DNA of 64,000 bases from Prosthecobacter debontii (GTDB lineage Bacteria; Verrucomicrobiota; Verrucomicrobiia; Verrucomicrobiales; Akkermansiaceae). Where the stretch lies: positions 23,473 through 87,472 of the forward strand of contig CAMBPB010000004.1 in NCBI GenBank assembly GCA_945869465.1. Reading direction: 5' to 3'. Made by a program: the position numbers and the translations under genes. Shown one piece after another: positions 9,378 through 64,000 of the stretch. How positions within the stretch are numbered: position 1 is the first letter of the stretch; every line of letters starts with the position of its first letter. The notes below the pieces were generated by a model, which saw only the letters and a list, made by a program, of their open reading frames with translations, was not told where the DNA came from and did no database searches.

Positions 9378-9446
9378 AGATTGGAGATTGGAGATTGGAG
9401 ATTGGAGATTGGAGATTGGAGATTGGAGATTGGAGATTGGAGATTG
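9378..9446. repeat. Tandem heptamer array (AGATTGG) x9 plus partial
   Basis: Direct reading agattgg agattgg ... Confidence 0.97.
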
Positions 9447-9523
9447 CTGCCCTCTGCCCTCTGCCCTCTGCCCTCTGCCCTCTGCCCTCTGCCCTCTGCC
9501 CTCTGCCCTCTGCCCTCTGCCCC
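9447..9523. repeat. Tandem heptamer array (CTGCCCT) x10 plus one imperfect
   Basis: Direct reading ctgccct ctgccct ... abutting the previous array. Confidence 0.97.
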
Positions 9524-9533
9524 CTCGGCATGA

Positions 9534-9568
9534 AAAAATCCCCGCCACGCGGACGTGACGGGGATTTT
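9534..9568 (-). terminator. Terminator downstream of mdh
   Basis: aaaatcccc...ggggatttt stem with T-run on minus strand. Confidence 0.7.
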
Positions 9569-9593
9569 CAATGATGGTATCCGGCGAGATCGA

Positions 9594-10583
9594 TCAGCCG
9601 GGCAGGAGGTTTTTCACGGCATCGCGCTCTTCCTTGAGCTCGTTGATGGTGGTGTCGATCTTGGATTGGCTGAAGGCATCGATGGGCAGGCCTTGCACGA
9701 CCTCCCACTTGCCGCCTTCGAGGGAGCGGATCGGCATGGAGGCCATCAGGCCTTTTTCAATGCCGTAGGAACCATCGGAACACACTGCCACGGAAGTCCA
9801 ATCGCCGGCGGGAGTCGGGGTGATGAGGCTGCGCACGGTGTCCATGGCGGCATTGGCGGCGGAAGCGGCGGAGGAAAGGCCGCGGGCCTTGAGGATGGCT
9901 GCACCGCGTTGTTGCACGGTGGTGATGAACTCGCCCTTGAGCCATTCCACGTGGGAGATGACATCGGTGACCGGGCGGCCCTGGATTTTGGCATTGGTGA
10001 AATCCGGGTATTGAGTGGCGGAGTGGTTGCCCCAGATGCACATGTTGGTGACTTGGGAAACATGCACGCTGGCCTTTTTGGCGAGCTGGCTTTTCGCGCG
10101 GTTTTCATCGAGGCGGGTCATGGCGAAGAAGCGGTCCTTCGGCACGCCGTCGGCGTTGTTCATGGCGATGAGGGCGTTGGTGTTGCAGGGATTGCCGACG
10201 ACCAGCACGCGCACGTCCCTGGCGGCGTTGCGGGCGATGGCCTTGCCCTGGCCGGTGAAAATCTTGCCGTTGATGCCGAGCAGGTCGGCGCGTTCCATTC
10301 CGGCTTTGCGGGGCACGGAACCGACGAGCAGCGCCCAGTTGGTTCCTTTGAAGCCTTCGTTGAGATCGGCAGTGCCGACCACGTCGTTAAGGAGCGGGAA
10401 AGCGCAGTCATCAAGCTCCATCATCACCCCTTCGAGCGCGGCCATGCCGGGTTCGATTTCGATCAGGCGGAGGTTGACCGGTTGGTCGGGTCCGAAGACG
10501 AAGCCGGAAGCGATGCGGAAAAGGAGGGCATAGCCGATTTGGCCAGCCGCGCCGGTGACGGAGACGGTAATTGGTGCTTTCAT
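9594..10583 (-). CDS. mdh: Malate dehydrogenase
   Basis: [61 protein letters not shown]. Confidence 0.95.
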
Positions 10584-44353: not shown

Positions 44354-44520
44354 CATCATGATGCATGCACGTCCTCTCGCCGTCCCGCTTCTTGTCCTCG
44401 CCCTCGTTGCGTGCGACCGGGTGAAACATTAGGCCACAGACACTAAGCCAGACTAAGCCACAGACAAATTATAGAAGATGGGGCTTGCGTCCGGGGCGGT
44501 GGATGGCTAGGGTGGCAGCC

Positions 44521-45645
44521 ATGAGACGATCCCAAGGCATGGTGAAGGGCACGCGGTGGCTGGCGCCGTGGAAGGATTCGTTTGAGCGGCCGGTGATTTA
44601 CCACTGCGTGACGCGAGTGGTGGAGCGGCGGTTGGCGTTCGGCCAGGAGGAGAAGGAAAAACTGCGGACGTTCATGCGGATGTATGAAAATTTCTCGGGC
44701 TGCCGGGTGCTGGCTTACTGCCTGATGTGCAACCACGTGCACTTGTTATTGGAAGTGCCGCCGATGGTGGAGGGTGGCTTGTCCGACGCGGATTTGCTGA
44801 AACGCCTGAGGGCGATTCACGGCGAAGCGCTGGTGGCAGAGATTGCGAAGGAGTTGGCGGAAGCTCGGAAAAAGGTGCGGGATGGCCTAGCGGATGAGTC
44901 GCTGGTGTCACGGATTCACGAGCGCTTCACCTATCGGATGCACGATCTGGGAGAGTTCATGAAAGCGCTGCTGCAGCGCTTCACGCGGTGGTTCAATGTG
45001 AAACACGAACGAACGGGCACCTTGTGGGAAAGCCGGTTCAAGAGCGTGCTGGTGGAGGACGGTATTGCGGCGAAGACGATGGCGGCGTACATCGATTTGA
45101 ATCCTGTGAGAGCGGGGATGGTGACGGACCCGGCGGAATATCGCTGGAGCAGCTACGGAGAAGCGATGGGCGGCGGGCCGAAAGGCAACGGAAAGAAAGC
45201 CCGCGCCGGATTGGTGCGGGCGATCACGGCGCACAAGGGAGGTGAGGCGGATGCGCGGCACTGGGCGGGCCGGGTTTCGAAGGAATACCGAATGCTGTTG
45301 CTAGAAGAGGGGCAGGAACAGCTCAAGGAGGTGGTGACGGAGGCGGGTAAACGGGTTGTGAAGGTGGTGCGCAAGGGTCTGAACAAAGCCGCTGTGAACG
45401 TCGAGTTGGCGCAACTCCAGCGGAGCCGGGACGTGGCGATGAGCCGGATGCTGCGGAGCCGGGTGAGGTATTTTACCGACGGTGCGGTGATTGGGAGCCG
45501 GGAGTTTGTGGACGATGTTTTCAGGAAATGCCGCCAGCGATTCGGCTCGAAGCGAGAGAATGGTGCTCGAAAGTGGCGTGGCAGTGGAGCTGCGGCGGCG
45601 GGGATGCTGTGGAGTGCGCGGGATTTACAGAAGGGGATCGGCTGA
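44521..45645 (+). mobile_element. REP-associated tyrosine transposase (RAYT; Y1 HUH, IS200-like fold)
   Basis: YHCVTRVVERR, YCLMCNHVHLLLEVP (HUH), GTLWESRFKSVLVED, YIDLNPVRAGMV. Confidence 0.88.
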
Positions 45646-47637: not shown

Positions 47638-48438
47638 TCAGATGATTGGATTTTCAGGCGGGGAGGGTTCGTTGACGTGGACGACGATGAGGGTTGTATC
47701 GTCGATTCCGGAGTTGTCGATGGCGCGTTTGAGAAGAGTGCGGGAGGTCTCGCCGGGGGAGAGGGGAGCTGCGAGGGCGTTGGCGATGTGGCGTTCCCAG
47801 ACACCGTCGATGAGGCCGTCCGAGCAGATGAGGAAACGGTCGTCCGCCTGGTAGGGGACCGCGGCGAAGTGGGGGCAGACATTGAGGTGGCAGCCGCCGA
47901 TGACTTCGTAGAGGGCGGAGCGCCGCGGGTGGGAGCGATATTCGATTTCCGAGATTTCGCCGCGTTTCCACTGGCCCCAGGCGGCGGTGTGGTCGCGGGT
48001 GAGTTGTTTGAGTTCGCCGCCGCGCGAAAGGTAGATGCGCGAATCGCCGGCGTTGGCAAGGTAGAGGTTGTCCGGAGTGAACCAGGCGAGCGCGAGGGTG
48101 GCGGCCATGCCGTGATTGTGGTCGCAGGCGGCCTCGTTGATGTGGCCGTGGACCGAGCGGATCGCCTCGGCGAGGTGATCGAGGCAATCCGGGAAAAACC
48201 CGGAGGCGGCGATTTTGAAGGTTTCCGGGATGATTTCCGACATCTTCTGCAACAAGAGCGAGGAGGCGAGGTCGCCGGCGTTGCCGCCACCCATGCCATC
48301 GGAGACGGCGAAGACCAAATCGTGGCGTTCCAGCGAGCGGGCCCCGAATTCCGGCAGGGTTTGTGCGCCTGAAGGACCGGAGGCGAAGGCGATGAGCGAA
48401 TCGTCGTTGCGGGGCTTGCGGGAGCCGCTGTGGGTCAT
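47638..48438 (-). CDS. PP2C-family Ser/Thr protein phosphatase
   Basis: LVFAVSDGMGGGNAGDLAS, LYLANAGDSRIYL, RFLICSDGLID, GIDDTTLIVVHV. Confidence 0.9.
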   Translation of the reverse strand: MTHSGSRKPRNDDSLIAFASGPSGAQTLPEFGARSLERHDLVFAVSDGMGGGNAGDLASSLLLQKMSEIIPETFKIAASGFFPDCLDHLAEAIRSVHGHINEAACDHNHGMAATLALAWFTPDNLYLANAGDSRIYLSRGGELKQLTRDHTAAWGQWKRGEISEIEYRSHPRRSALYEVIGGCHLNVCPHFAAVPYQADDRFLICSDGLIDGVWERHIANALAAPLSPGETSRTLLKRAIDNSGIDDTTLIVVHVNEPSPPENPII

Positions 48439-48478
48439 GGAGGCCCACTGGAGGATCAAGGGGACGGGCACGGTGAAA

Positions 48479-48907
48479 TCAGGTGTTCGGTTGGGGCGCG
48501 GGCGGCATCACCAGACCCGGCGGTGGCGGCAGGATGTCGGCGAGTTCGAAGTCGATGATGCAGAAGCAGCCCAGTTTGTCCGAGTAGGTGATGTTGCGCG
48601 GTTCGGCGTCGAGGTGGCGCACGCCGTATTCCTTTTCGAGTTTGGCGAAGAGTTTGTCGGCTTTTTCCTTGGAGAGCTGCGGCGCGGGTTTGCCGCAATT
48701 GGTGGAAACGAAGTAAAGCTCCTCCGGGTGTTCTGCCAGCAGCCTGGGGACGTAGGGGCAGCCGCGTTCCCCGAGCACCTTGAGCACGGCCACCTCGGTG
48801 GCGTAGCGTTTGTCGGCATCGGTGCCGCGGAGTTTTTTGTGGACGTTGCCGTAGAAATCGATTCGCACGTGGGAACGAATGCCGTCTTTGAGTGGATCGA
48901 TGGCCAT
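48479..48907 (-). CDS. Small (142 aa) protein-kinase-like/RIO-like protein
   Basis: GVRHLDAEPRNITYSDKLGCFCIIDFELADIL (HxDxxxxN...DFE catalytic-loop-like). Confidence 0.6.
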   Translation of the reverse strand: MAIDPLKDGIRSHVRIDFYGNVHKKLRGTDADKRYATEVAVLKVLGERGCPYVPRLLAEHPEELYFVSTNCGKPAPQLSKEKADKLFAKLEKEYGVRHLDAEPRNITYSDKLGCFCIIDFELADILPPPPGLVMPPAPQPNT

Positions 48908-49093
48908 GGCGAGCGGATGCGGGGGCGACGAAACGCGCAGGCAAGCTCGCTGTCACGCTTTTGTTGCCAGGGAGGGATACTATTGGCATCGCCCAGGTCA
49001 TTCCAGGTGGCGGGAAACCCCAGCGGATTCCCCCGCGCGAATTTTTCCAAAAACTCCGTTGCCAGTCCCGGCTTGCAAGGGTATTCAGCGGCC

Positions 49094-49552
49094 ATGTCCA
49101 TCATTGCCGCAGATTCCACCGTGATCGTGAAAACCCGGGAGTTGTGCGCCCAAATCGCCAGCGACCCCGTGTTTCTCCAGCTCCAGGAGAACGTCGAACG
49201 TTTCCTCAGCGACGACGCCGCCCGCCTCCAATATCAGAGTGTGCATGAACGCGGCGAGGACTTGCATCACAAGCAGCACGCCGGGGTCGAACTGGGTGCG
49301 ACGGAAATCCGCGAGTTCGAGGCGGCGCGTGAGGCGTTGTTCGACAACGAGGTGGCGCGGGAGTTTCTAACCGCCCAACAGGAGTTGGAGCGCTTGCAGA
49401 AGGAAATCAGCAAATACATCAGCCTGACATTGGAGTCCGGCAAGGTTCCCACGGCGGAAGACATCGCGGCGGCCAGCGGTGGCGGATGCTGTGGTGGCGG
49501 CGGTGGCGGTGGCGGTGGCGGTGGCGGTGGCGGTGGCTGCTGCTCGCACTGA
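49094..49552 (+). CDS. YlbF/YmcA-family-like protein with Gly-rich Cys-bracketed tail
   Basis: All-helical VIVKTRELCAQIASDPVFLQLQENVERFLSDDAARLQYQSV...; C-terminus GGGCCGGGGGGGGGGGGGGGCCSH. Confidence 0.7.
   Translation: MSIIAADSTVIVKTRELCAQIASDPVFLQLQENVERFLSDDAARLQYQSVHERGEDLHHKQHAGVELGATEIREFEAAREALFDNEVAREFLTAQQELERLQKEISKYISLTLESGKVPTAEDIAAASGGGCCGGGGGGGGGGGGGGGCCSH
49501..49536 (+). repeat. Hexanucleotide cggtgg repeat encoding poly-Gly
   Basis: Direct reading. Confidence 0.9.
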
Positions 49553-49789: not shown

Positions 49790-49834
49790 ATGACGCTTGC
49801 GCCATGGTTTATCCATCCAACACCCTTCCGTTAA
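49790..49834 (+). CDS. Putative 14-aa leader peptide MTLAPWFIHPTPFR
   Basis: Strong Shine-Dalgarno aaggagg with ~8-nt spacing before ATG; stop TAA 58 nt before the giant ORF start. Confidence 0.45.
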   Translation: MTLAPWFIHPTPFR

Positions 49835-49892
49835 GTCAAACCCACCCAAACCCATTCGTTTTCCTGTCGCCGCTCCGACCGCCACCACCAAC

Positions 49893-52800
49893 ATGAAACC
49901 TAAATCCGTCATTCGTCTTGTTCGCAACGGTTCGCAATCCGCCCGCCTGCTCGCGATTTCGATCGCCACCCTGCTTGCTCCATACTCCGCGCAGGCTGCC
50001 AGCGCAACGTGGAACGGCACCACCGATGCCACCTGGGCCACCGGCACCAACTGGAGCACCACCCCAGTCCCCGGCACGGGTGACACCGCCACGTTCAATA
50101 ATGCGGGCGGGACGCTTGACATCATTGATCTTGGAACGGGCGTCACGATCAATACCATCAGCTTCGAGACATCGAGTGCTGCGGCTTACACGATTGGTTC
50201 GGGCGGGATCGGCATCCAGACTCTCACGCTGGACAACGGCGGTGCGATTACCGTCAACTCTGCCGTTGCCCAACAGGAGATATTCAACGCCAACATCGTT
50301 TTGGGCACCGACGGCGCTGCGAGTGACTTCACCATCACCAACAACAGAGTCGGTGCGCTCAACGCTGTCCCTTATTTGCAGTTTAGCGGCACCTTCACCG
50401 GTTCGGCAGGTTCGGGGCTCAAGACTCTGACCTTCGACGCCAACGGCACATCTGCGACCAACTCCATCAGCGCTCTGGGCAACATCAGTAATGGCACTTC
50501 CGGCACGGTCAAGCTCGTCAAGCAAGGTGCCGGCATTATGACGTTGGGATTGAACGGGGGCACGATGACCTATACGGGTGGGACTTACCTTGATGCCGGC
50601 ACACTCCAAATCGTAGGCTCCGTAAACAACCTCCAGGCAGGGTCTTCTCTCTACATCGCGGGTGGCACTAATCTGAACAGCATCAACCAATCTGGCGGCA
50701 ACTATTCGAGCATCGTCCAGCAATGGAACGGTGATTTCAGCTTCAACGACAGCGCAAAGTCTGTTGGAGCGGGTCTGCAGCAGATGACATTCACCGGCGG
50801 CACGGTGGATCTAGGAGCGACCGGGACGGATACGGTGCGCACGATCAATGCGTTGGCGAACACGCTGACTATCGGCAGCATCATCTCCAATGGCACGAAT
50901 ACCACCACCACCGGTCTCACCAAGACCGGTGCGGGCACGATGGTGCTGGGCGGCAACAACACCTACACCGGCACCACTACGGTGAACGCTGGCACATTGA
51001 CGATTACCGGTGGGCCTGCGGGCGGCGGCGCATATGCTGCGCTCGGCAGTGGCAAGTTGGAAATCAGCGGAGCCGCTGGCACGATCAATACCTCCTCCGT
51101 AATCACCATCGCGGGCGGCAACCTCCAGTTGACCAACACGAGCACTGCGGAAGGCTCGGTGAATCGCCTCAACAACGCCACGGCCATCACCTCCAACGGC
51201 GGCACGCTTACTTACAATAACACCAGCGGTAACACCTACGCCGAGAACATCGGCAATGTGACGCTCAACGGTGGGCAGTTTAATACCGTGCTGTCCACTA
51301 ACATGGCGACTGGCATCCAGACGCTGACCCTGAACAGCCTGACGCAAAACAACCGTTCCACCGCCACTTTCTCTGCGGCCACCACCGCACCAAACGCGAC
51401 GACGAACATCATCAAAGTCGCCGGTGTCACTGCCACCCCGGCCGGACAGATCATTGGGCCTTGGGCGACCACCGGCACCTCGGCCACCGTCCAGACCGAT
51501 TATGCCGTGTATGACGCCTCCGGCAACATCGTCGCCGCCAACATCGCCGGATCGCTGGATTCCACATGGACCGATTCGACCAAGGCTTACACCAGCAACT
51601 TCCTCGGCGGCGGTGCCGCTAACGTCCTCAGTGCGACGACGCACAACATGGCCGCCCTGCGCAATCTCCCGGCGTTTGGTAACGCCAACACCGCCACCAC
51701 CATCGCCATCCCGACAGGTGGTAATTTGAATACCTTCGGGCTTTTGAATGCCAACCAGGGACTCTGGACCATTAATCAGGTCACTGGCAGCACGGGCGCA
51801 CTGAGCACGCCCACGGGCGGCGGCAGCATTTATATCAACACCGGCAACGGCACGTCAGGCGGCAACGGCGCCATCACCATCGGTGCGCCGATCAATGACA
51901 ACGGCGGCGCGGTTTCCATCGTGAAGACCGGAACCGGCAACACCGTGGCGGTCGGTCAGGGCGTGCTCACGCTCTCCAACGTCACCAGCAATTTCACCGG
52001 CGCAACGGTCATCAATGGCGGCTCGATTGTGCTGAACACAGCCGGTGCGCTGGCAAACGGTGGCCTCGCCAGTTCACTCGGTGCAGCCTCCACTTCTGCA
52101 GACAATCTCGTCATCAACGGCGGCTTCCTGCAATACGGCACTGCGACGACGGCCGTCTCGACCAACCGCCTTTTCAGCATCAGTGCCATGGGCGGCACGA
52201 TTGATTCCTCATCGGGCACTGCGGCCGCCACGATGAACTTCATCGGCACGGGCGCGATGGGCTTCGCCAGCCAGACCGGTCCGCGCACGCTGACCCTGCA
52301 AGGCTCGAACGTCGGCGTCGCGGCCTCGACCAGCGGCAGCAACACGAGCCAAAGCACCCTGGCCCTGCTCATTGGCGACAACAGCGGCGCGACCAGCCTC
52401 ACCAAGACCGGTATCGGCACATGGGCGCTCACCAACTCCGCCAGCACCTACACGGGCCCGACCACGATTTCGCAGGGCATCCTGAATGTTGGCACCTTCG
52501 CCGCCGTCAACACGGCCAGCAGCATTGGAAGGGGCTCGGTCGCCGGCTCCGCCGCTGACTTGATCCTCAACGGAGGGACCCTGCAATACAGCAACAACAC
52601 CGCTGCCACGACCAACCGTCTCTTTGGCGTCGGCACCAGCGGCGGCACGCTTGATTCCTCGGCTGCCGGCCCGAACAACACCTTGAGCTTCACCAGCACC
52701 GACCTCATTGGCTTCAACAACCAGAGCGGCGCTCGCACCCTCACTTTGGCTGGCACCAACGTCGGGGCCAACAGCATGGGCCTCCGCCTCGATGACTTAG

Positions 52801-55800
52801 GCGGCCTGACCAACCTGACCAAGTCAGATAAAGGCACATGGGCACCCGCCAACGCCGGCAACACCTACACCGGCATCACGACGATCAACGCCGGCATCCT
52901 CTCCGTCGGCAAACTCGCCAACGGCGGTGTTGCCAGCAGCATTGGCGCGTCCACCAATGCGGCCGCCAATCTGGTGTTCAATGCGGGCAGCAGCGGGGCG
53001 CAAACCACCATTGCAGCGCTGGTCAACGCGATCATCCCCAATACCGGCTCTAACGCGCCGATTTTGAAATACACCGGCTCCGGTGACAGCACAGATCGAC
53101 TCATCAACTTCAACTTGGGCGGAGGCAACGCCAACCGGTTTGCGGTGCTCGACGCCTCCGGCAGTGCCGCAATCAACTTCACCAACGCCGGCAGCCCGAC
53201 CTTCGCCAACGCCGATCAGTTGTTCACGCTCGTTCTTTCCGGCAGCAACGCTAACAACAATACCTTCGCGGGCATCATTCCCAACAATGGCAACAAGGGC
53301 GTCAGTGTTGTCAAAGACGGCGTCGGCACTTGGATCCTCTCCGGCAACAACACTTACAGCGATGCAGCCGGCACGGTCAGCACCTTCGGCACGACGGTGA
53401 ATCAAGGCACCCTGGTCCTCTCCGGTTCGCCCACCGCCGCCACCGCCCTCAAGACCACGGTCAACGCGGGCGGCACGCTGAAACTCGACTATTCAACTAA
53501 CAACACTTCCAAGCTGAGCGATCATGCCACCCTCGGGATGCTCACCCTCGGCGGCGGCACGCTGAACCTCAGTGGTGGCTCGCACACCGAAGTGGTCACC
53601 AACACCACCCTGAGCCCCGGTGCCTCCAGTGTCATCCAGAGCGGCGGTGGGTCTTCCATCCTCCGGATGAACGCCATCACGCGCAACCCCGGTGCCATGC
53701 TTGACTTTGGCGCGGCAAGCATCGCTGACACCGACAACAATAACGCAACCAGCGTTGGCATCCTCGGCGCTTATGCCACGGTTGCTGGTGCGAACTGGGC
53801 CAAGTCCGTGGACGCCGCTGCCGCCAACACTGCCATCACGGCATACACTTCCGGCTACACGGATATAGACGCGCTCGGCTCCACGATAACCAATGGATCT
53901 ACAACAAATGTGCGCTTGAACAGTGCGTCGGGCTCCGGCGACATCACTCTGGGATCCACCACCACTGCGATCAACACGCTGCTTCAAAACACGACCACCG
54001 CCGCAACGATCGATACCACCGGCAAGACTTTGCAGACCACTGGCATCATGATTGGTGCCGGTAAGGAATCGCTGACCATCGGTCTATCTGCTGGCACCGG
54101 CTCGTTGCAAGCGGCTGCATCCGCAGGCGACCTCGTCCTGAACAATGCGAGCAATTACAGCGGCACGAATTCCGGCAAGACCCTGACTGTTAATGTGCCC
54201 GTCATCCTGAACGGTGCCTCCACCTTGACCACCGCAGGAAACGTCACCCTCAACGGCGTCAACACCTACACCGGTGCCACCTTCGTCAACGCCGGCACGC
54301 TCACCATTTCCGGAACTGGCAACTTGAACAGCGGCAACTACGCCGGTGCGATCACCATCGCACAGGGAGCGACCCTGAACTACACCAGCAGCGCCAATCA
54401 AACCCTCAGCGGAGGCACGAGTGGCTTCGGTAATTTCATCTGGAACCCAAGCAGCAGCTCCGCTGTCTTGGTCACAGGTGCGCGCGGTGCGACGCCCGCT
54501 GTTCTGACGATTATGAGCGGCATCGTATCTGGTGTTGTGGGAAATCTAGGCACCGGCCCCGCTTCCGATCTGATCCTTGATGGCGGAATCCTTCGCACGA
54601 AGGACGGCGGCGGCGGCGCGGATCAGACCAGTCGCCTCTTCACGCTCGGCGCGGGTGGCGGCACCATTCAGATTGACGACCTCTCGATTCAGGGAACTAC
54701 GACCCGGCCTACTGAATTCACCGGCACCGGTGCTATCGCCTTCACAGGATCGGGTGCTCGGACGTTGAAATTTGAAAGCGCCATCATGAACGTCAATAAG
54801 TTCTCACCTGCGCTTGGAGACGGATCCGGCGGCGCAACGAGCGTGATCATGGGCGGCACGGCAGGTGCCTATGGCGTATGGGCTCTCGACGGCGCCAACA
54901 CCTACACCGGCACGACCACTGTCAACGGTGGTCATTTGAGCATCCGCAAGACGCAATCGGTCAACGGAGGCGTCGCCTACTTCACTCCAGCGAATATCAC
55001 GGTCACGCCCGGGGCTGGTGTAGCCGGCATTGCCATCGGCGTTGGCGCAGGCCCGACTTATTTTGATTCCACGGCGATCGCCACCATTCTCGACAGCTCG
55101 CACTTGGGTGCAAGCACCACCACCACCGGCTTGAAGGGCGGTGCGCAGTTCGGTTTGGACACCACCGCAGGCGATTTTACTTACACTGGCACGCTTGCCG
55201 ACTTCACGGCTGGCGACAGTAATGTCTTCAATCTCGCCAAACACGGCGTCGGCACACTGACCCTTACCGGCAACAATACCTACACCGGCACCACCACGAT
55301 CTACGGCAGTGGGATTGGTCACAGCACAGGCACCAGCATCCTTCGCGCAGGCAGTTCGACGGCGTTCGGCCAGCCCACGACCGCCAACCTCGTTTTTGAT
55401 CAGGGAGCCTTTTCACTCATCAATAAACTGCAGCTCTTTGGGAACAGTGTGACCGTCATTGGGCTTAATTCTCCGGTTGCAAACCATCGCGACGGCAAGG
55501 GTGAAAACTACATCGAAAGCGGCAGCAGTGACACCAGCGGCACCGGCACCGATATCCTGACGATCAACAACACGACCACCAGCACATGGAACAACGGTGC
55601 AGCTTCCAACACTGGCAAGAGCATCATTCAGGACGGCGGTGCCCGTAGGCTCGGTATCACCAAGAGCGGCGCAGGCACGATGGAACTCGGCGGCACGAAT
55701 ACCTACACCGGCGGCACGATCATCAACGAGGGTGTCTTGCGGTTGCTCAACACTCAGGCGTTGGGCGGCGCAGCAGGCGCGGCGGGCACCGTGAGCTTTG

Positions 55801-58800
55801 GCGCAGGCAGCACTGGCACTTTACGGCTCAATGCGAACAACATCACCATCGCCAATCTGGACACCAACGCCACCGTCGGCACGCCGGTTGTCGAAAACGG
55901 CACGGCTGGCAACGCCACACTCACCGTCAACAACACGGCGAACAGCACGTTTGCGGGCGTCCTGCAGAATGGCGCTGCGGGCACGTTGTTGCTCACCAAG
56001 ACCGGTGCTGGCACGTTAACGCTCTCGGGCGACAACACCTACACGGGTGCGACCGCCGTCAACGGCGGCAAGTTGGTCCTTTCCGGCAACAACACCGCGG
56101 CCACCGGCGACATCGCTGTCAACAGCGGCGGTATCGTGCAGTTCAATGGTAACAGCTCTATCAATGGCGATGCCTCCAACGTCCTGAATCGCGATGTCAC
56201 GATCAACGCCGGTGGCACGGCGGTGTTTGGCGCGTCCTTCGGAATCGGTATCACCGATGTCCAGACCGCGCTGGCCAACCGCGTCGTGGCGGCCTCCGCC
56301 GGCGCCATCGCTGCGGACAACTACGCGGGCGACAACTTCGACTTCGCAGCCGCCGGCCTCACGAACGCGTCCCTTGGCGCAGTCGGCATTGTGAACTACA
56401 CCGGCACCCTGACGCCCAATGGCACCACCTATCGCCTCGGGGGCGGCGGGGGTACGCTCACCTATCCCACTCTGATCACCGGCAGCGACCTCGCCATCAC
56501 CGGAGCCAGCACCGGCTCGGTTGTGTTGAGCAACGCCGGCAATACTCTGGGCGCGCTGACCGTTTCCAGCGGCATCCTCGATCTGAACGCCACCACCCAG
56601 ACGGCCACCACCGTTACACTGGCCGGCGGCACGCTGCAAAATGGTACGCTCACCGGCACCGCCTACAGCGGCACTGGTGGCACTTCGACGGCCATCCTCG
56701 CCGGAATCGGCATCGTGTTCACCAACACGTCTGGCACGACGACCCTCAACGCCAGCAACACCTATGACGGCGGCACCAACATCACCGGCGGCACGCTGAA
56801 GGCCGTCGCGGCGGGCTCCCTCGGCTCCGGCCTGGTCACGATCAGCAACGGTGCCGCGCTCGCCCTGGCCAGCGACGGCACTGGCACGGGGCTCGGCAAC
56901 AGCAAGCTCGAAAGCATCAACTACGGCAATGACATCGCGCTCAGCGGTGCGGCCCAGACCATCACCGTCGGACAATTCACCGCCGGCGCCGGCACGCTCA
57001 ACGCCGCTAACAAGACGCTCCAGCTCGACTCCCTCGACATCGGCTCCCAAACGCTAACCGTAACCAACAGCAATGGCTTCGGCCTGGAGTTCACCGGCGC
57101 CACCACCTTCAGCGCCGCACCGACCTTCAGCGTCACGAACCCGTCGCTCGTCCTTGGGAATGCGCCGATCGTCCAGGGCCTGACTCTCTCGGGGGTGGTT
57201 TCCGGGGGCTTTGGCTTCACCAAAACCGGCACCGGCACCATGGTGCTGACCAACGCCGGCAACACCTTCGGCACCGGTGGCAGCACGCTCACCATCAGCA
57301 ACGGCCTCCTCAGCGTGACTTCGGATGGTGCCTTGGGCGACAGCGGCAACATCATCTCCCTCAATCTAATCGGTTCGGGCCTTCAGGCGGACGGCACCTT
57401 CAGCACCGCCCGCCGGATCAACACCAGCGCAGCCAATGGAGTGATCGACGTGACCCAGGGCAATGTCCTCACCCTCGACACCACCGCGTTGAACAACGGC
57501 ACCGCCTCGACAAACGCCCTCAGAAAGAACGGCAACGGCGTGTTCAACATCAACGTGGACAACACCTCCAGCTATACCGGCGTGATCACCGTCAATGCCG
57601 GTGCCATCCGCGTCTCCAACGCCGGTGCCTTGGGGGCGCCGGGCACCAACACCACCGTCTCCAATGCCGTCGGCTCCGCCGTGCAGATTAATGGCGTCAA
57701 CACCGCCGAGTTGTTCAATCTCACCGGCTCCGGCATCAACAGCGGCGGCGCGCTGGAAAACTTCAGCGGCACGAACGCCCTCAGCGGCGCGATCACCCTC
57801 GGTGGCGCGGCGACGATCGGCTCCACCTCCGGCACGTTGACCCTGAGCGGCGGCATCAGCGGCGGGCAGGCCCTGACCTTCTCCGGCGCTGGCGGCATTG
57901 CCGTCACCACCACCGCGATCGGGGCTGTCAGCAGCATCACCAAGATCGGCAGCGGCACCACGACGCTTAGCGTGGCAAGCACCGGCTTCATCCTGCCATT
58001 TGCGGTCAACGCAGGAACCTTCAAATTGGATTCAGCTGGGAAGCTTGGCAACGCCAGCACCACCACCGTGAACCCCGGTGCCATCCTGACGCTCGACAAC
58101 ACCAGCACAAGCACCGCCAGTCGCCTCGGCGGCTCCACGCGAACCCTGACGCTTTCCGGCGGCACCTTGAATTTCACCGGCAACGGCACCACCGAGGCTA
58201 TTGGTGCGCTTACTCCAAGTGCTGGTCTCGATGTGATCAATCTGTCGGGCACCGGCACGCTCAGCTTCGCCAGTCTCGGCACCCGCGCTGCAGGCGGTGT
58301 CGTGAGTTTCTCTGGTTCCGGTCCCGCCGTGCAGTTTGTGGCCCCGACCACCGTCACCGACAGCCTGCTCATGGGCGGCACGATGCCGCTCTTCTACGGC
58401 AATGACTTCGCCACCAGCACCGGCTTGGCCAATGCCCCGATCAGCGCCTATGCGGGCTACACCACGGGCGACTTCGGTGCGCAAGCCACTTCCACTGCGA
58501 TCAACTTCAATCCGACTGGCGCGCAGACCAACGTGACCGCCACCAAGACGATCAACAAGCTCAAGCTGACCGGTCAGGGAGTTACCATCAACTCCGGGCA
58601 AGTCCTGACTTTGGACGCTGCCGCCGTAATCAACAATGGCGGTGGAAACATCACGGGCGGCTACCTGGTCACGACGAGCAATGCGGAACTGGTGATCAAC
58701 AACGCCAGCGACATGAGCATCGCCAGCGTGATCGGCAGCAGCAGCAGCAACGTCAGCGCTGCCCTTAACAAAGTCGGTGCGGGCAACCTCACACTCAGCG

Positions 58801-61800
58801 CCCTGAATAACTATACCGGCATTACTTACGTCAATCAGGGCACTCTGACCCTCGGCGGCGGGAACAATACCTTGGCGGTCAACAAGGCGATGGTGCTCAA
58901 TAACGGCAGCACGCTCGCCCTCGGCAGCAACAACCAGTATCTCGGATCACTCACCAGCACCGGCTTAGTCGAAGGCTCCGGCGGAAACATCACGGGCACC
59001 GGCACGCTGACCGTTAATACCGGAGCGGCCACCTTCGCCGGCAACATCGGCTCCGACGGCGGGGCGTTCAACTTCGTCAAGACGGGCGGCACCACCTCAT
59101 TGACCCTGGTCAGCGCCAACAGCACCACTGGCACGGTGAGCGTGCTCGGAGGCCGACTGAGCGCCAACGGTAGCGCCTCGGGCCCTAGTGGCGTATTCGG
59201 CTTGGCCCTAAAGGACGGCGGCACCCTGGCTGCCACGACCGGGATCACCCTGAATGGCTCCGCGCTGATCATTGACAATACCGGCACCAAGGACATGGCC
59301 GATCGCGTCAACAACGCGGCTTCGATCACGCTGAATAGCGGCATGATCGGCTATTATGGCCGTGCGCAATACAACTCGACGGAAACCCTTGGCGATTTGA
59401 CGCATGGAGTGACGCTGAACTCGGGCTTAAACATGCTCGTTGCCAATCCTGGCGGCACTGGTGTGAACAGCGCCCAGTTGACGCTCGCCAGCCTCACCCG
59501 CAACACCGGAGCGATCGTCAACGTGGCTGGTGACAGCCAATGGAACGGCGGAAACAACAACCTTGGGCAGATCGGCAACGCCGCGCGCGTCGTGGTCTCC
59601 GGCACGCAAACCGGCCTCACCCCGATCAATGGCGTCGTTCCGGGCGCATTCAACACTTACACCGTCGATCAGTTTCACTTTGTGGGCTACGTGCCCGGCT
59701 TGGGCTTCGGTCCGTTGGGAACCGCCGGCTTCCCGGCCAATTACACCGGCACCTTTGCGGCGGCGTTGCCCACTAGTAACCTGAATAGCGTTTCGGGAGC
59801 GGTTACGGCCAACATGACCATCAATTCCTTCAATCAAGGCGCCATTACTTTCACGAATGGGACCACAACCGGGGGGAGCGATCTTCTGACTGTGGATAGC
59901 GGCATGATGGTTATCACCGGCACCACCCCGATGGGAACCGCGGCTAACCGCGGGCGGATTACCTCCGGAACGTCACAAGAACTCTTCCTTATCAAGAGAG
60001 ACGGCAACAACGGCAGCATTAACCCCATCCATTCCGTGATCGTGGATAACGGAAACCCTGTCAGCCTGATCGTCGCGGTCGGTAAAAACGACGGGAATGC
60101 CTTGCTGAGCTTGACTGCCCCGAATACCTATACGGGTGGGACATATGTCAGCAGCAAGAACACCGGCGGGCTTTCACTGGATGCCACCAACCCCGGCGTC
60201 ATCACTGTTCCTTACGCATTGGCGAGTTCCGGGGCTAACGGCCTCATCATCAACAACGGCAGCGTCGTGACGATGGCGACCAACGCCGGCCAGATCGATC
60301 CGCGGAACACCGTGACCCTCAATGGTGGTGCGACCATGACCTATGTCGGCAACAACACGCAGGCCAACCTAGTCTTTAACAGCAACGGCGGCACTGTCAC
60401 GCCCACCATCGCTGTCGGCAACATCCTGACCCTCACCGGCAACATCACTTCGACGCCCACCAACGTGGCGGTCGTCCCGACTATCAGCGGCACGACGCTC
60501 GACCTGAACAACTCGACCAGCCACAACATCACGGTGGATGGCGGGGCCACGACGGCCTCGCTCTTCCACGCTGGCAACGGTGCGACGGTCACCGGTCTGA
60601 CCATCAGTTCGATCATCAACAGCCTCACCCCCGCCAGCGGCGGCTTCACCAAGCTCGGCACGGGTGTGCTGAGCTTGACCGGCGCCAACGTGTTCACCGG
60701 CGGCCTAAATATCAACGCCGGTGCCGTCATTGCCGGCAATGCCGCGGCTCTCGGCGGCAGCGGCAACGTAGTCACGCTCAATAACGCGGCTCTGTGGCTC
60801 AACGGAACCAACCCCAACAGCGGCGCGATCATTACAGCCGGTGCGACTGGCGGCACGATTGCCATGACGGCGGACACCAGCGTCGATGGCAACATCGTCC
60901 TCAACGGGGCGCTGACCGTCAGCCTCGCCGACCCGACGCTCAATAACACCGACCGCACCCTCAATTTCAACAGCGCGGCTGGCAACCGGTTTGGGATGTC
61001 GGGTGCTGGCTCGCTGGTGGTCTCGGGCAACGCCAACAACAACTTCAACGCCACACCCAAGTTTCTGTTCATGCAGCAGAACGCGGTCACCAACACCTAC
61101 ACCGGCGGCACCACGATCAACTCCGGCGGGCGCATCAAGATGGGCGCCGCCAGTGCCGTGGGTGCCACCAACGTGGTCGGGCTTGGTAACTTGGGCGCCA
61201 CGAACAACACGCTGACGGTCAATGCCGGGGGTGCGCTCGACCTGAACAACTTCGACCAGACTGTTGGCAACTTTACCGGCACGGGCGGTCAGATTGTCAA
61301 CACCACCGGCGGCACGAAAACCCTGACCATTGGCAACGGCAACACCGGCGGCGGGACTTTTGCAGGCATCTTCGCCACAGGCACAGGCCAGGTCACCCTC
61401 AACAAGGTCGGCACCGGCACCATCACGCTCAGCGGCAGCAGCACCTCGACTGGTGGCACCACCGTCTCAAATGGCACGCTGGCCCTTGACTTCACGACAG
61501 CGACCACGGCAGCCCCCGTGCTCGCCAGCGGCGGTGTGCTCACCCTTGGCGGCGGCACACTCGACATCCGCAACGGCACGGCTCAAGTCCAAACCGTGGC
61601 CTCCACCACCCTCACCGGCGGTTTGAGTAATGTCACGCAGTCCAGCGGTTCCTCCATCCTGCGCATGAATGTCATCACTCCCGGCGTGGGCGTGGTCAAT
61701 TTCGGTGAGGACAGCATCGCCAGCACGACCACCGCGAACAACGGCGGGGGCATCCTCGGTGCCTGGGCCACGGTGGGCGGCACGGATTGGGCGGTCAACT

Positions 61801-64000
61801 CCGGCAGCGTCGAGAACGGATCGAACAATTACATCGTCGCCCTCACGGCCGGTGGATACACCGACATCGACGTCCGCGGTGTCAGCACCATCGCCGACGG
61901 TTCCACCACAAACGTGCGGCTCGATGGCGACGGCACGAGCGGCAACATTGACCTCGGTGCTGCGACCACGACCGTCAACACCCTGCTGCAAAACAACGCG
62001 AGCTTTGCAGGCACGGTGGATACAGTCGGCAAGGCCCTCGTGACCAACGGCATCATGATCGGCAGCGGCAAAGAGGCGCTGACCATCGGTGTGGCAGTCG
62101 GCGACGGCAGCTTGACCACCGCCACGGTCGGCAATCTGGCCCTGATCAATAACAACGCCAGCAGGACACTCACCGTGAATGCACCGATCCTCGTGAACTC
62201 AACTTCCGGTTTGAGCACTGCGGGCAATGTGCTCTTGAATGGAGTGAACACATTCACCGGTAATACGGGCATCGGCAACGGCACGCTGGAAATCGGCGGG
62301 GCTGGGCAGTTGGGTGGAGGCAGCTATAGCAATGACATCTTGATCGGCACTGGTGGCACACTGAAATACAACAGCAGCGCGAACCAGACCTTCAGTGGTA
62401 ACCTCACCGGGGCAGGCGGCTTGGTGAAGGATGGCATTAGCAATCTGACCCTCACCGGCAACCCAAACAGTTACGCGGGAGGCACTATTGTGAACGGAGG
62501 AAAGCTGATTCTCAATACACCCAACGACTCGCAGGCGAACCAGGGGGCGCTGACGATCAACTCCGCTGGCACGGTTGAGATACTGGGCGGTAACCCGCTT
62601 TACAATGGCACCGCGCTGAATCGCACGATCACCATTAACGGTGGAACGCTGAGCAGGACGAGCGGCGGCGGGGGCAACCAAGACTACCGGGTGAAGTCCA
62701 TCGACATGACCGCGGGTCTCATCTCGTCAACGTCGGTTGGGTATATGGAGTTCTTCAATGACGCCTACGGTTCGAGTGTGCCCGTCAATACACATGCCAG
62801 CGCCAGCGAAGCGGTGATTTCCGCAAATTGGGCTGCTCGCAACAACGTAGGAACCACCACGTTCGTGTTCACGACGGAAGTCGGCACGACGGCATCCGGT
62901 GTGGATCTCCTCTTCAGCGGGAACTTGGCTGGCAACACTGTCTATAACGTGACCAAGGCGGGCGCTGGCGTCATGGCGATCTCGGCCAACTATCACACGA
63001 CCACCGTTTACGGCACAGGCACCTTTGCTGGTTACTCCGGCATCACCACCATCAACGGCGGCACGCTGCAACTGGGCAATGGCGGTGCGGCTGGCACGTT
63101 GAACCCACTTAGCACCATCGTGAATAATGGTAATTTGGCCTTCAATCGTGATGCCACGACCAACCTCACTCAAGGAACTCACTTCAACAGTGTCATCTCC
63201 GGCACGGGCGGCGTCTCGCAACTCGGCAGCGGCACCACGATTCTGAACGGCGCGAACACCTACGGCGGCGGCACCACGGTTGCTAACGGAACGCTCCTCG
63301 TCAACAACACCACGGGCTCCGGCACCGGCACCGGCTCGGTCACCGTGGACGGCGGCGCGACCCTCGGCGGCACCGGCACCATCGGTGGTTCGACCAGCAT
63401 CAGCGGCGACCACGCCCCGGGCCTCAGCGCGGGAGTCCAGTCGTTTTCCAACAGTCTGGCCTATCTCGCCGCTGCGAACCTCAAGTGGGAGCTCAATGAC
63501 GATGTTTCCACCGCCACCACCGGCGTCCGCGGCACGGACTTCGATGGCGTGGATGTCACCGGCGGCACCTTCGCCGTCACCAGCGGCGCCACGCTCGATC
63601 TTAGCTTCGGCGGCGCGGTGGACTTCCTGGACAGCTTCTGGGGCAGCAACCGCTCCTGGACGGTGGTCGATCTAACCAGTGGCGTCACCGGCACGGGTGG
63701 CACCAACCTCTTTAGCGTGGGGACGCTCACCGGCGGCAGCAATTACAGCGGCTCGCTCGGCACCTTCACCGTCACCCGGCCGACCGATGGCAACGGCAAG
63801 AACGACGTCCAGTTGAACTGGACCTCCGGTGTGGTGCTGAGTCCCTATCAAACCTGGGCGTCCGGCTTCAGCAGCCCCGCTCTATCCAATCAGGCTGCCG
63901 ATGCCGATCCCGACGAGGACGGTCTGGATAACGGCGTCGAATATGTGCTGGGCACTGATCCGCGCTTCACCAACCAGGGCGGCCCCACCGGCTCGGTGGT
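49893..64000 (+). CDS. Giant autotransporter-associated beta-strand repeat (PATR) protein, 3' end beyond window
   Basis: MKPKSVIRLVRNGSQSARLLAISIATLLAPYSAQAASATWNGTTDATWATGTNWS; dozens of NTYTGxTTVNAGTLxxxG repeats in one frame; near the edge DPDEDGLDNGVEYVLGTDPRF. No terminated + ORF in frame 0 is listed here, consistent with one uninterrupted frame. Confidence 0.9.
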   Translation, partial: MKPKSVIRLVRNGSQSARLLAISIATLLAPYSAQAASATWNGTTDATWATGTNWSTTPVPGTGDTATFNNAGGTLDIIDLGTGVTINTISFETSSAAAYTIGSGGIGIQTLTLDNGGAITVNSAVAQQEIFNANIVLGTDGAASDFTITNNRVGALNAVPYLQFSGTFTGSAGSGLKTLTFDANGTSATNSISALGNISNGTSGTVKLVKQGAGIMTLGLNGGTMTYTGGTYLDAGTLQIVGSVNNLQAGSSLYIAGGTNLNSINQSGGNYSSIVQQWNGDFSFNDSAKSVGAGLQQMTFTGGTVDLGATGTDTVRTINALANTLTIGSIISNGTNTTTTGLTKTGAGTMVLGGNNTYTGTTTVNAGTLTITGGPAGGGAYAALGSGKLEISGAAGTINTSSVITIAGGNLQLTNTSTAEGSVNRLNNATAITSNGGTLTYNNTSGNTYAENIGNVTLNGGQFNTVLSTNMATGIQTLTLNSLTQNNRSTATFSAATTAPNATTNIIKVAGVTATPAGQIIGPWATTGTSATVQTDYAVYDASGNIVAANIAGSLDSTWTDSTKAYTSNFLGGGAANVLSATTHNMAALRNLPAFGNANTATTIAIPTGGNLNTFGLLNANQGLWTINQVTGSTGALSTPTGGGSIYINTGNGTSGGNGAITIGAPINDNGGAVSIVKTGTGNTVAVGQGVLTLSNVTSNFTGATVINGGSIVLNTAGALANGGLASSLGAASTSADNLVINGGFLQYGTATTAVSTNRLFSISAMGGTIDSSSGTAAATMNFIGTGAMGFASQTGPRTLTLQGSNVGVAASTSGSNTSQSTLALLIGDNSGATSLTKTGIGTWALTNSASTYTGPTTISQGILNVGTFAAVNTASSIGRGSVAGSAADLILNGGTLQYSNNTAATTNRLFGVGTSGGTLDSSAAGPNNTLSFTSTDLIGFNNQSGARTLTLAGTNVGANSMGLRLDDLGGLTNLTKSDKGTWAPANAGNTYTGITTINAGILSVGKLANGGVASSIGASTNAAANLVFNAGSSGAQTTIAALVNAIIPNTGSNAPILKYTGSGDSTDRLINFNLGGGNANRFAVLDASGSAAINFTNAGSPTFANADQLFTLVLSGSNANNNTFAGIIPNNGNKGVSVVKDGVGTWILSGNNTYSDAAGTVSTFGTTVNQGTLVLSGSPTAATALKTTVNAGGTLKLDYSTNNTSKLSDHATLGMLTLGGGTLNLSGGSHTEVVTNTTLSPGASSVIQSGGGSSILRMNAITRNPGAMLDFGAASIADTDNNNATSVGILGAYATVAGANWAKSVDAAAANTAITAYTSGYTDIDALGSTITNGSTTNVRLNSASGSGDITLGSTTTAINTLLQNTTTAATIDTTGKTLQTTGIMIGAGKESLTIGLSAGTGSLQAAASAGDLVLNNASNYSGTNSGKTLTVNVPVILNGASTLTTAGNVTLNGVNTYTGATFVNAGTLTISGTGNLNSGNYAGAITIAQGATLNYTSSANQTLSGGTSGFGNFIWNPSSSSAVLVTGARGATPAVLTIMSGIVSGVVGNLGTGPASDLILDGGILRTKDGGGGADQTSRLFTLGAGGGTIQIDDLSIQGTTTRPTEFTGTGAIAFTGSGARTLKFESAIMNVNKFSPALGDGSGGATSVIMGGTAGAYGVWALDGANTYTGTTTVNGGHLSIRKTQSVNGGVAYFTPANITVTPGAGVAGIAIGVGAGPTYFDSTAIATILDSSHLGASTTTTGLKGGAQFGLDTTAGDFTYTGTLADFTAGDSNVFNLAKHGVGTLTLTGNNTYTGTTTIYGSGIGHSTGTSILRAGSSTAFGQPTTANLVFDQGAFSLINKLQLFGNSVTVIGLNSPVANHRDGKGENYIESGSSDTSGTGTDILTINNTTTSTWNNGAASNTGKSIIQDGGARRLGITKSGAGTMELGGTNTYTGGTIINEGVLRLLNTQALGGAAGAAGTVSFGAGSTGTLRLNANNITIANLDTNATVGTPVVENGTAGNATLTVNNTANSTFAGVLQNGAAGTLLLTKTGAGTLTLSGDNTYTGATAVNGGKLVLSGNNTAATGDIAVNSGGIVQFNGNSSINGDASNVLNRDVTINAGGTAVFGASFGIGITDVQTALANRVVAASAGAIAADNYAGDNFDFAAAGLTNASLGAVGIVNYTGTLTPNGTTYRLGGGGGTLTYPTLITGSDLAITGASTGSVVLSNAGNTLGALTVSSGILDLNATTQTATTVTLAGGTLQNGTLTGTAYSGTGGTSTAILAGIGIVFTNTSGTTTLNASNTYDGGTNITGGTLKAVAAGSLGSGLVTISNGAALALASDGTGTGLGNSKLESINYGNDIALSGAAQTITVGQFTAGAGTLNAANKTLQLDSLDIGSQTLTVTNSNGFGLEFTGATTFSAAPTFSVTNPSLVLGNAPIVQGLTLSGVVSGGFGFTKTGTGTMVLTNAGNTFGTGGSTLTISNGLLSVTSDGALGDSGNIISLNLIGSGLQADGTFSTARRINTSAANGVIDVTQGNVLTLDTTALNNGTASTNALRKNGNGVFNINVDNTSSYTGVITVNAGAIRVSNAGALGAPGTNTTVSNAVGSAVQINGVNTAELFNLTGSGINSGGALENFSGTNALSGAITLGGAATIGSTSGTLTLSGGISGGQALTFSGAGGIAVTTTAIGAVSSITKIGSGTTTLSVASTGFILPFAVNAGTFKLDSAGKLGNASTTTVNPGAILTLDNTSTSTASRLGGSTRTLTLSGGTLNFTGNGTTEAIGALTPSAGLDVINLSGTGTLSFASLGTRAAGGVVSFSGSGPAVQFVAPTTVTDSLLMGGTMPLFYGNDFATSTGLANAPISAYAGYTTGDFGAQATSTAINFNPTGAQTNVTATKTINKLKLTGQGVTINSGQVLTLDAAAVINNGGGNITGGYLVTTSNAELVINNASDMSIASVIGSSSSNVSAALNKVGAGNLTLSALNNYTGITYVNQGTLTLGGGNNTLAVNKAMVLNNGSTLALGSNNQYLGSLTSTGLVEGSGGNITGTGTLTVNTGAATFAGNIGSDGGAFNFVKTGGTTSLTLVSANSTTGTVSVLGGRLSANGSASGPSGVFGLALKDGGTLAATTGITLNGSALIIDNTGTKDMADRVNNAASITLNSGMIGYYGRAQYNSTETLGDLTHGVTLNSGLNMLVANPGGTGVNSAQLTLASLTRNTGAIVNVAGDSQWNGGNNNLGQIGNAARVVVSGTQTGLTPINGVVPGAFNTYTVDQFHFVGYVPGLGFGPLGTAGFPANYTGTFAAALPTSNLNSVSGAVTANMTINSFNQGAITFTNGTTTGGSDLLTVDSGMMVITGTTPMGTAANRGRITSGTSQELFLIKRDGNNGSINPIHSVIVDNGNPVSLIVAVGKNDGNALLSLTAPNTYTGGTYVSSKNTGGLSLDATNPGVITVPYALASSGANGLIINNGSVVTMATNAGQIDPRNTVTLNGGATMTYVGNNTQANLVFNSNGGTVTPTIAVGNILTLTGNITSTPTNVAVVPTISGTTLDLNNSTSHNITVDGGATTASLFHAGNGATVTGLTISSIINSLTPASGGFTKLGTGVLSLTGANVFTGGLNINAGAVIAGNAAALGGSGNVVTLNNAALWLNGTNPNSGAIITAGATGGTIAMTADTSVDGNIVLNGALTVSLADPTLNNTDRTLNFNSAAGNRFGMSGAGSLVVSGNANNNFNATPKFLFMQQNAVTNTYTGGTTINSGGRIKMGAASAVGATNVVGLGNLGATNNTLTVNAGGALDLNNFDQTVGNFTGTGGQIVNTTGGTKTLTIGNGNTGGGTFAGIFATGTGQVTLNKVGTGTITLSGSSTSTGGTTVSNGTLALDFTTATTAAPVLASGGVLTLGGGTLDIRNGTAQVQTVASTTLTGGLSNVTQSSGSSILRMNVITPGVGVVNFGEDSIASTTTANNGGGILGAWATVGGTDWAVNSGSVENGSNNYIVALTAGGYTDIDVRGVSTIADGSTTNVRLDGDGTSGNIDLGAATTTVNTLLQNNASFAGTVDTVGKALVTNGIMIGSGKEALTIGVAVGDGSLTTATVGNLALINNNASRTLTVNAPILVNSTSGLSTAGNVLLNGVNTFTGNTGIGNGTLEIGGAGQLGGGSYSNDILIGTGGTLKYNSSANQTFSGNLTGAGGLVKDGISNLTLTGNPNSYAGGTIVNGGKLILNTPNDSQANQGALTINSAGTVEILGGNPLYNGTALNRTITINGGTLSRTSGGGGNQDYRVKSIDMTAGLISSTSVGYMEFFNDAYGSSVPVNTHASASEAVISANWAARNNVGTTTFVFTTEVGTTASGVDLLFSGNLAGNTVYNVTKAGAGVMAISANYHTTTVYGTGTFAGYSGITTINGGTLQLGNGGAAGTLNPLSTIVNNGNLAFNRDATTNLTQGTHFNSVISGTGGVSQLGSGTTILNGANTYGGGTTVANGTLLVNNTTGSGTGTGSVTVDGGATLGGTGTIGGSTSISGDHAPGLSAGVQSFSNSLAYLAAANLKWELNDDVSTATTGVRGTDFDGVDVTGGTFAVTSGATLDLSFGGAVDFLDSFWGSNRSWTVVDLTSGVTGTGGTNLFSVGTLTGGSNYSGSLGTFTVTRPTDGNGKNDVQLNWTSGVVLSPYQTWASGFSSPALSNQAADADPDEDGLDNGVEYVLGTDPRFTNQGGPTGSV

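Follow-up and report, generated by a model that had tools for sequence, protein, structure and literature searches.

A giant PATR-repeat protein of Prosthecobacter debontii ends in a C-terminal module widespread in the Verrucomicrobiota

Very long genes encoding proteins of secreted type are common in the PVC group, according to two papers that give counts and classes of such genes (PMC5177795, PMC11573180). The gene described here, from a draft Prosthecobacter debontii genome of 161 contigs, is likewise very long and of the secreted type, whereas the C-terminal module in which its product ends is not described in those passages. The protein resembles the PATR / TIGR02601 proteins (PF12951) in having repeats that score over the curated cut-offs and a solenoid-type sequence rich in Gly, Thr, Asn and Ser, but differs in its great length, in the absence of a fused autotransporter barrel and in the presence of a separate C-terminal module. 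If the module is a tag, it would share the logic of the PEP-CTERM / exosortase system, in which many unrelated exported proteins carry a tag at the C terminus, although it is around 120-145 residues long rather than around 25, and lacks the PEP motif, the transmembrane helix and the basic tail. The C-terminal domains of type IX secretion (T9SS; TIGR04183, TIGR04131) are similarly found at the extreme C terminus of diverse secreted proteins and are also probable beta-sandwiches; however, the module does not match them in sequence and has motifs of its own (YxxW, a D-x-D-x-DG loop and an FxRLxV end). Its D-rich loop is similar to one unit of the bacterial TSP3 repeat (PF18884), but there is only a single loop, followed by a conserved beta domain that lies outside the coverage of PF18884.

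The window, by which we mean the whole 64,000 nt stretch that was analysed, contains a stop-free frame running from the ATG at 49893 to its final base, 4,702 codons in all, in agreement with a preliminary description of an uninterrupted ORF of more than 14.1 kb and more than 4,700 residues. The other two forward frames contain 174 and 103 stops over the same interval, and the three reverse frames 30, 97 and 362; the probability of a random frame of equal composition remaining open is approximately 1e-57. Third-position GC content has a mean of 0.78, compared with 0.51 and 0.56 at the first and second positions, and lies between 0.68 and 0.88 in all 900 bp blocks; as it is raised in every block, signs of frameshifting are absent. 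An ORF finder reports the gene only when open ends are permitted, as a 4,734 aa frame that starts from a TTG and is open at its 3' end (49797..63998). The ATG at 49893 is taken as the start on the basis of paralogues with an equivalent beginning (MKPxSxxRL...). The N terminus that follows was thought to be a signal peptide, and a Sec signal peptide is indeed plausible, both by eye and by comparison with these paralogues, which begin alike. No obvious ribosome binding site precedes the gene, which is also the case for the PATR paralogues.

Table 1. Features of the giant PATR protein gene, in window coordinates.
Feature	Position	Strand	Basis or remark
Coding part of the giant PATR protein gene, 4,702 codons	49893..64000	+	Translation, both 3' continuations; stop 260 bp beyond contig end
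Signal-peptide-like N terminus, MKPKSVIRLVRNGSQSARLLAISIATLLAPYSAQA	49893..49997	+	Sequence; like start in paralogues; cleavage site placed by eye
Region of PATR / TIGR02601 repeats, predicted to form a right-handed beta-solenoid	50013..63188	+	Family models; fold inferred from family
Tandem internal duplication, residues 662-896 vs 822-1033, 43% identical	51876..52991	+	
Dispersed internal duplication, first copy (residues 1194-1588), with 43-52% identity to the second	53472..54656	+	
Dispersed internal duplication, second copy (residues 3861-4275)	61473..62717	+	43-52% identical to first copy
Conserved end of the repeat passenger	63189..63845	+	Matches in own-genome paralogues and G006
DNA repeat	63838..64000	+	98.8% identical to C54 end; last 136 bp identical to C103 / C75 ends
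Start of C-terminal module: YQTW, then loop DADPDEDGLDNGVEYVLGTDP	63846..64000	+	Remainder on C103 or C75

The identification of the product as a giant PATR protein is upheld by matches to PF12951 (E 1.1e-53, 179 bits against a cut-off of 27, in 17 stretches along the protein) and to the NCBIfam model TIGR02601 (E 1.2e-72, 239 bits against a cut-off of 19.85, in 20 stretches). Within the repeat region are both dispersed and tandem internal duplications (Table 1). A single-sequence AlphaFold2 model of residues 1970-2569 had a pLDDT of 45, and is hence uninformative as to the fold of this region. The conserved stretch that closes the repeats, taken together with the hinge after it, is found at 54-57% identity in paralogues from the same genome and in a relative, genome G006. 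The gene is the longest of around 25 open frames in the genome that match PATR; its length is not remarkable, as relatives contain matching segments within open frames of 5,000 to 9,993 aa.

That the frame is open at the edge of the window, as originally reported, is true insofar as no stop lies inside it; however, this is not merely a consequence of the size of the window, the final base of which is also the last base of contig C4, which itself ends in a duplicated tail. The last 163 bp of C4 match the end of C54, part of a different PATR gene, and the very end is shared exactly with the outer ends of both C103 and C75 (Table 1). The assembly breaks at this point because the tail is almost exactly duplicated elsewhere in the genome. 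C103 and C75 share 97.7% identity for 487 bp, a stretch that takes in the stop codon and a strong hairpin, and are unrelated beyond; taken with the shared ends of C4 and C54, this implies a single repeat with two genes leading into it and two flanks leading out. Both contigs are compatible with being the continuation of C4, and with either the stop is reached 87 codons past the contig end (64260-64262 in extended coordinates), giving a full protein of 4,789 aa ending ...FARLRVIVTP, the two versions of the tail having four differences in the 131 residues compared. Hence the C terminus does lie just beyond the edge, as had been anticipated, and the tail ('DPDEDGLDNGVEYVLGTDP') is of the secreted-protein type proposed, but the PEP-CTERM or beta-barrel end that was predicted is replaced by the C-terminal module on both continuations. 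This is one genuine gene, encoding 4,789 residues, and the identity of its product as a secretory PATR protein is solid.

The module consists of around 120-145 residues. It opens with a Y-x-x-W motif, followed by a D-x-D-x-D-G loop of the Ca-binding type that resembles those of EF-hands and TSP3 repeats, and is completed by a predicted beta domain with F-x-R-[L/V]-x-[V/A] at its end. The tails of paralogues in the same genome align with one another at the YxxW, the acidic loop and the terminal F-x-R-[LV]. Eleven of these tails were used to build a first profile, and 57 tails a larger one; as the founding alignment contains the continuations of the giant PATR protein itself, its own match to the profile is not independent. 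With the 11-tail profile, 129 of the 195 genomes sampled from the phylum have the module, representing 80 of 109 genera, and the other 66 have no match, whilst the 57-tail profile identifies 41 places in the P. debontii genome alone. In 68 of the 70 matches sampled (all but one of 29 best-of-genome loci and all but one of 41 further matches), the module ends between zero and ten residues from the stop codon. There are a few internal or tandem copies (L034, L035 and L077): two of these loci, L034 in G006 and L035 in G019, encode proteins with a tandem pair of modules. A further locus in the same genome as the giant gene (L188, C1:61500-66000) has a 3,057-aa frame that carries the C-terminal module twice in succession and contains highly similar (87-91%) tandem DNA repeats of around 285 bp.

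None of the Pfam or NCBIfam models spans the whole module in the 57 tails scanned. The loop is similar to those of TSP3 repeats and EF-hands, and the beta part is weakly like Ig/Fn3-like and discoidin-type domains; PF18884 (TSP3_bac) scores 13.7 bits on the giant protein, below its cut-off of 25, and matches eight of the 57 tails weakly (best E 2.9e-5). A weak match of ten tails to the NCBIfam model Amuc_1099 (best 1.8e-4) was considered and rejected: as a link to a secretion machine it was dropped because, among ten tails, there was one match, covering around 30 residues surrounding the loop with an E value of 0.048. No relatives of the tail were detected in plasmid records, nor was any description of it found in the literature searched, the journal coverage of which is incomplete.

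The sequences to which the module is attached are diverse. Scanning the 39 passengers directly preceding it gave matches to 56 Pfam families in total, mostly of surface or degradative types, including PATR, Ig, laminin-G, PL8 lyase, GH32, sulfatase, M4 and C25 peptidase and beta-propeller domains. A crude signal-peptide rule was satisfied by 27 of 34 carriers, compared with nine of 72 control frames, although both rule and sample are rough and the carriers were drawn from high-scoring matches. One 699-aa PATR paralogue (L024:4557-6653, on C92) has a PEP-CTERM end (IPEPASALLGGLGMLTLLRRRRSA) in place of the shared tail, such that the two are alternatives on one type of passenger. Another PATR gene, on C39 (L023:1131-5479), is split into two overlapping frames, has a damaged second tail, and represents either a pseudogene or an assembly error.

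Three pairs of loci within the genome exhibit strong DNA identity that begins at, or within around 20 bp of, the start of the module and extends to the stop codon or contig edge. These are C4/C54 (continued as C103/C75), a pair of neighbouring genes on C70, and C35/C41, in which one passenger is of the PATR kind and the other of the DUF642/Ig kind. Upstream of the module, identity is at the level expected by chance in the C35/C41 and C70 pairs, and C4/C54 retains no more than a distant similarity. Such a pattern is what would be left by a tag moving between genes through recombination, although the pairs are few. Elsewhere, 179 bp upstream of the tails of two neighbouring PATR genes on C54 (L012:14916-15094 and 9440-9618) are 99.4% identical, which points to a recent exchange between the two genes.

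We consider it probable that the single 4,789-residue gene product is a Sec-exported surface solenoid that carries a phylum-wide C-terminal sorting tag. Export by the Sec pathway would depend on the N-terminal signal peptide, judging by its sequence and that of the paralogues, after which the repeat region may fold into a beta-solenoid rod roughly 100 nm long, a figure suggested by knowledge of the PATR family and the length of the region. The polypeptide then ends in a module that is found across the phylum, nearly always C-terminally, on unrelated secreted passengers, and that is exchanged as a unit of DNA. The module would serve as a sorting tag for a putative export or attachment machine, and the rod, although lacking a fused barrel, would thereby be placed on the outer membrane or outside it, where it would probably function as an adhesin or matrix fibre. 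In a broader and more tentative proposal, to which we give somewhat less than an even chance, an undescribed sorting or secretion route operating across most of the phylum would recognise its substrates by the tail. The tail would pass between genes as a cassette of 3' DNA, and several dozen proteins of this cell, the giant PATR protein among them, would be clients of the route. Giant proteins of the PATR type are common in these genomes and would be unsurprising alone; it is the tail that is the surprising part. If it is a sorting tag, it would mark many of the secreted enzymes, lectins and adhesins of the phylum in one step, and the shared export route would be testable, with phylogenetic profiling, given the 66 of 195 genomes without a match to the first profile, providing a handle on the machine.

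The main rival to a sorting tag, which we think rather unlikely, holds that many secreted proteins share the tail as a C-terminal folding cap, or as a calcium-dependent domain binding carbohydrate or matrix. Its beta part faintly resembles Ig/Fn3-like and discoidin-type domains, and its loop those of EF-hands and TSP3 repeats, which is congruent with this, as is the existence of proteins with tandem copies, and a stabilising cap or binding domain might equally be C-terminal and shuffled between genes. However, binding domains usually vary in both position and copy number, unlike this module with its near-invariable placement beside the stop codon, and its passengers have no common substrate. 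A divergent T9SS C-terminal domain would account for a probable Ig-like domain on diverse secreted passengers. C25 peptidases are a family of known T9SS proteins, and one of the passengers of the module is a C25 peptidase. Nevertheless, none of the 57 tails matches the NCBIfam T9SS C-terminal models at E 0.1, and SprA_N has no match in this genome or the 195 genomes of the phylum, in a search run without a positive control; we regard a T9SS substrate as very improbable.

The two export systems suggested by the wider genome, which encodes an exosortase (C57), a few PEP-CTERM proteins and one autotransporter barrel (C15), are already contradicted as explanations for the giant protein. PATR repeats are named after autotransporter passengers, and the gene could be imagined as encoding a type Va autotransporter that lost its C-terminal barrel to the assembly break, were it not that C103 and C75 both close it 87 residues on without a barrel, and that intact paralogues on unbroken contigs (C13, C95, C48 and others) carry the same type of tail; PF03797 is found in the polypeptide with neither continuation, the sole barrel gene of the genome being that on C15, and this origin is hardly credible. 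The chance that the protein is a PEP-CTERM substrate of the exosortase is just as slight, despite the PEP-CTERM end of the C92 paralogue, as its tail lacks the PEP motif, transmembrane stretch and basic end, and none of the 57 tails matches any PEP-CTERM model. The genome is a repeat-rich draft containing the broken paralogue on C39, so the frame might alternatively be an assembly chimaera, joining pieces of different repeat genes, or a decayed gene. This too is highly unlikely, marginally more so than a T9SS substrate, since the codon-position signal is uniform and stops are absent over 14.1 kb, whilst comparable intact giants are found amongst the paralogues and in relatives.

Several other features lie upstream of the giant gene. 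A possible 14-residue leader ORF (MTLAPWFIHPTPFR; 49790-49834), with a strong AAGGAGG site, ends 58 bp before it, but is not conserved upstream of the PATR paralogues. The gene directly upstream (48215-49552) encodes a YlbF/YmcA-family protein with a C-terminal glycine run flanked by cysteines (GGGCCGG(G)nCCSH). Further from the giant gene is an IS200-like (Y1) transposase gene (44485-45645), a second copy of which, 88% identical over 1.19 kb, is found on C48 (L019:178-1364), a contig that also has a PATR gene.
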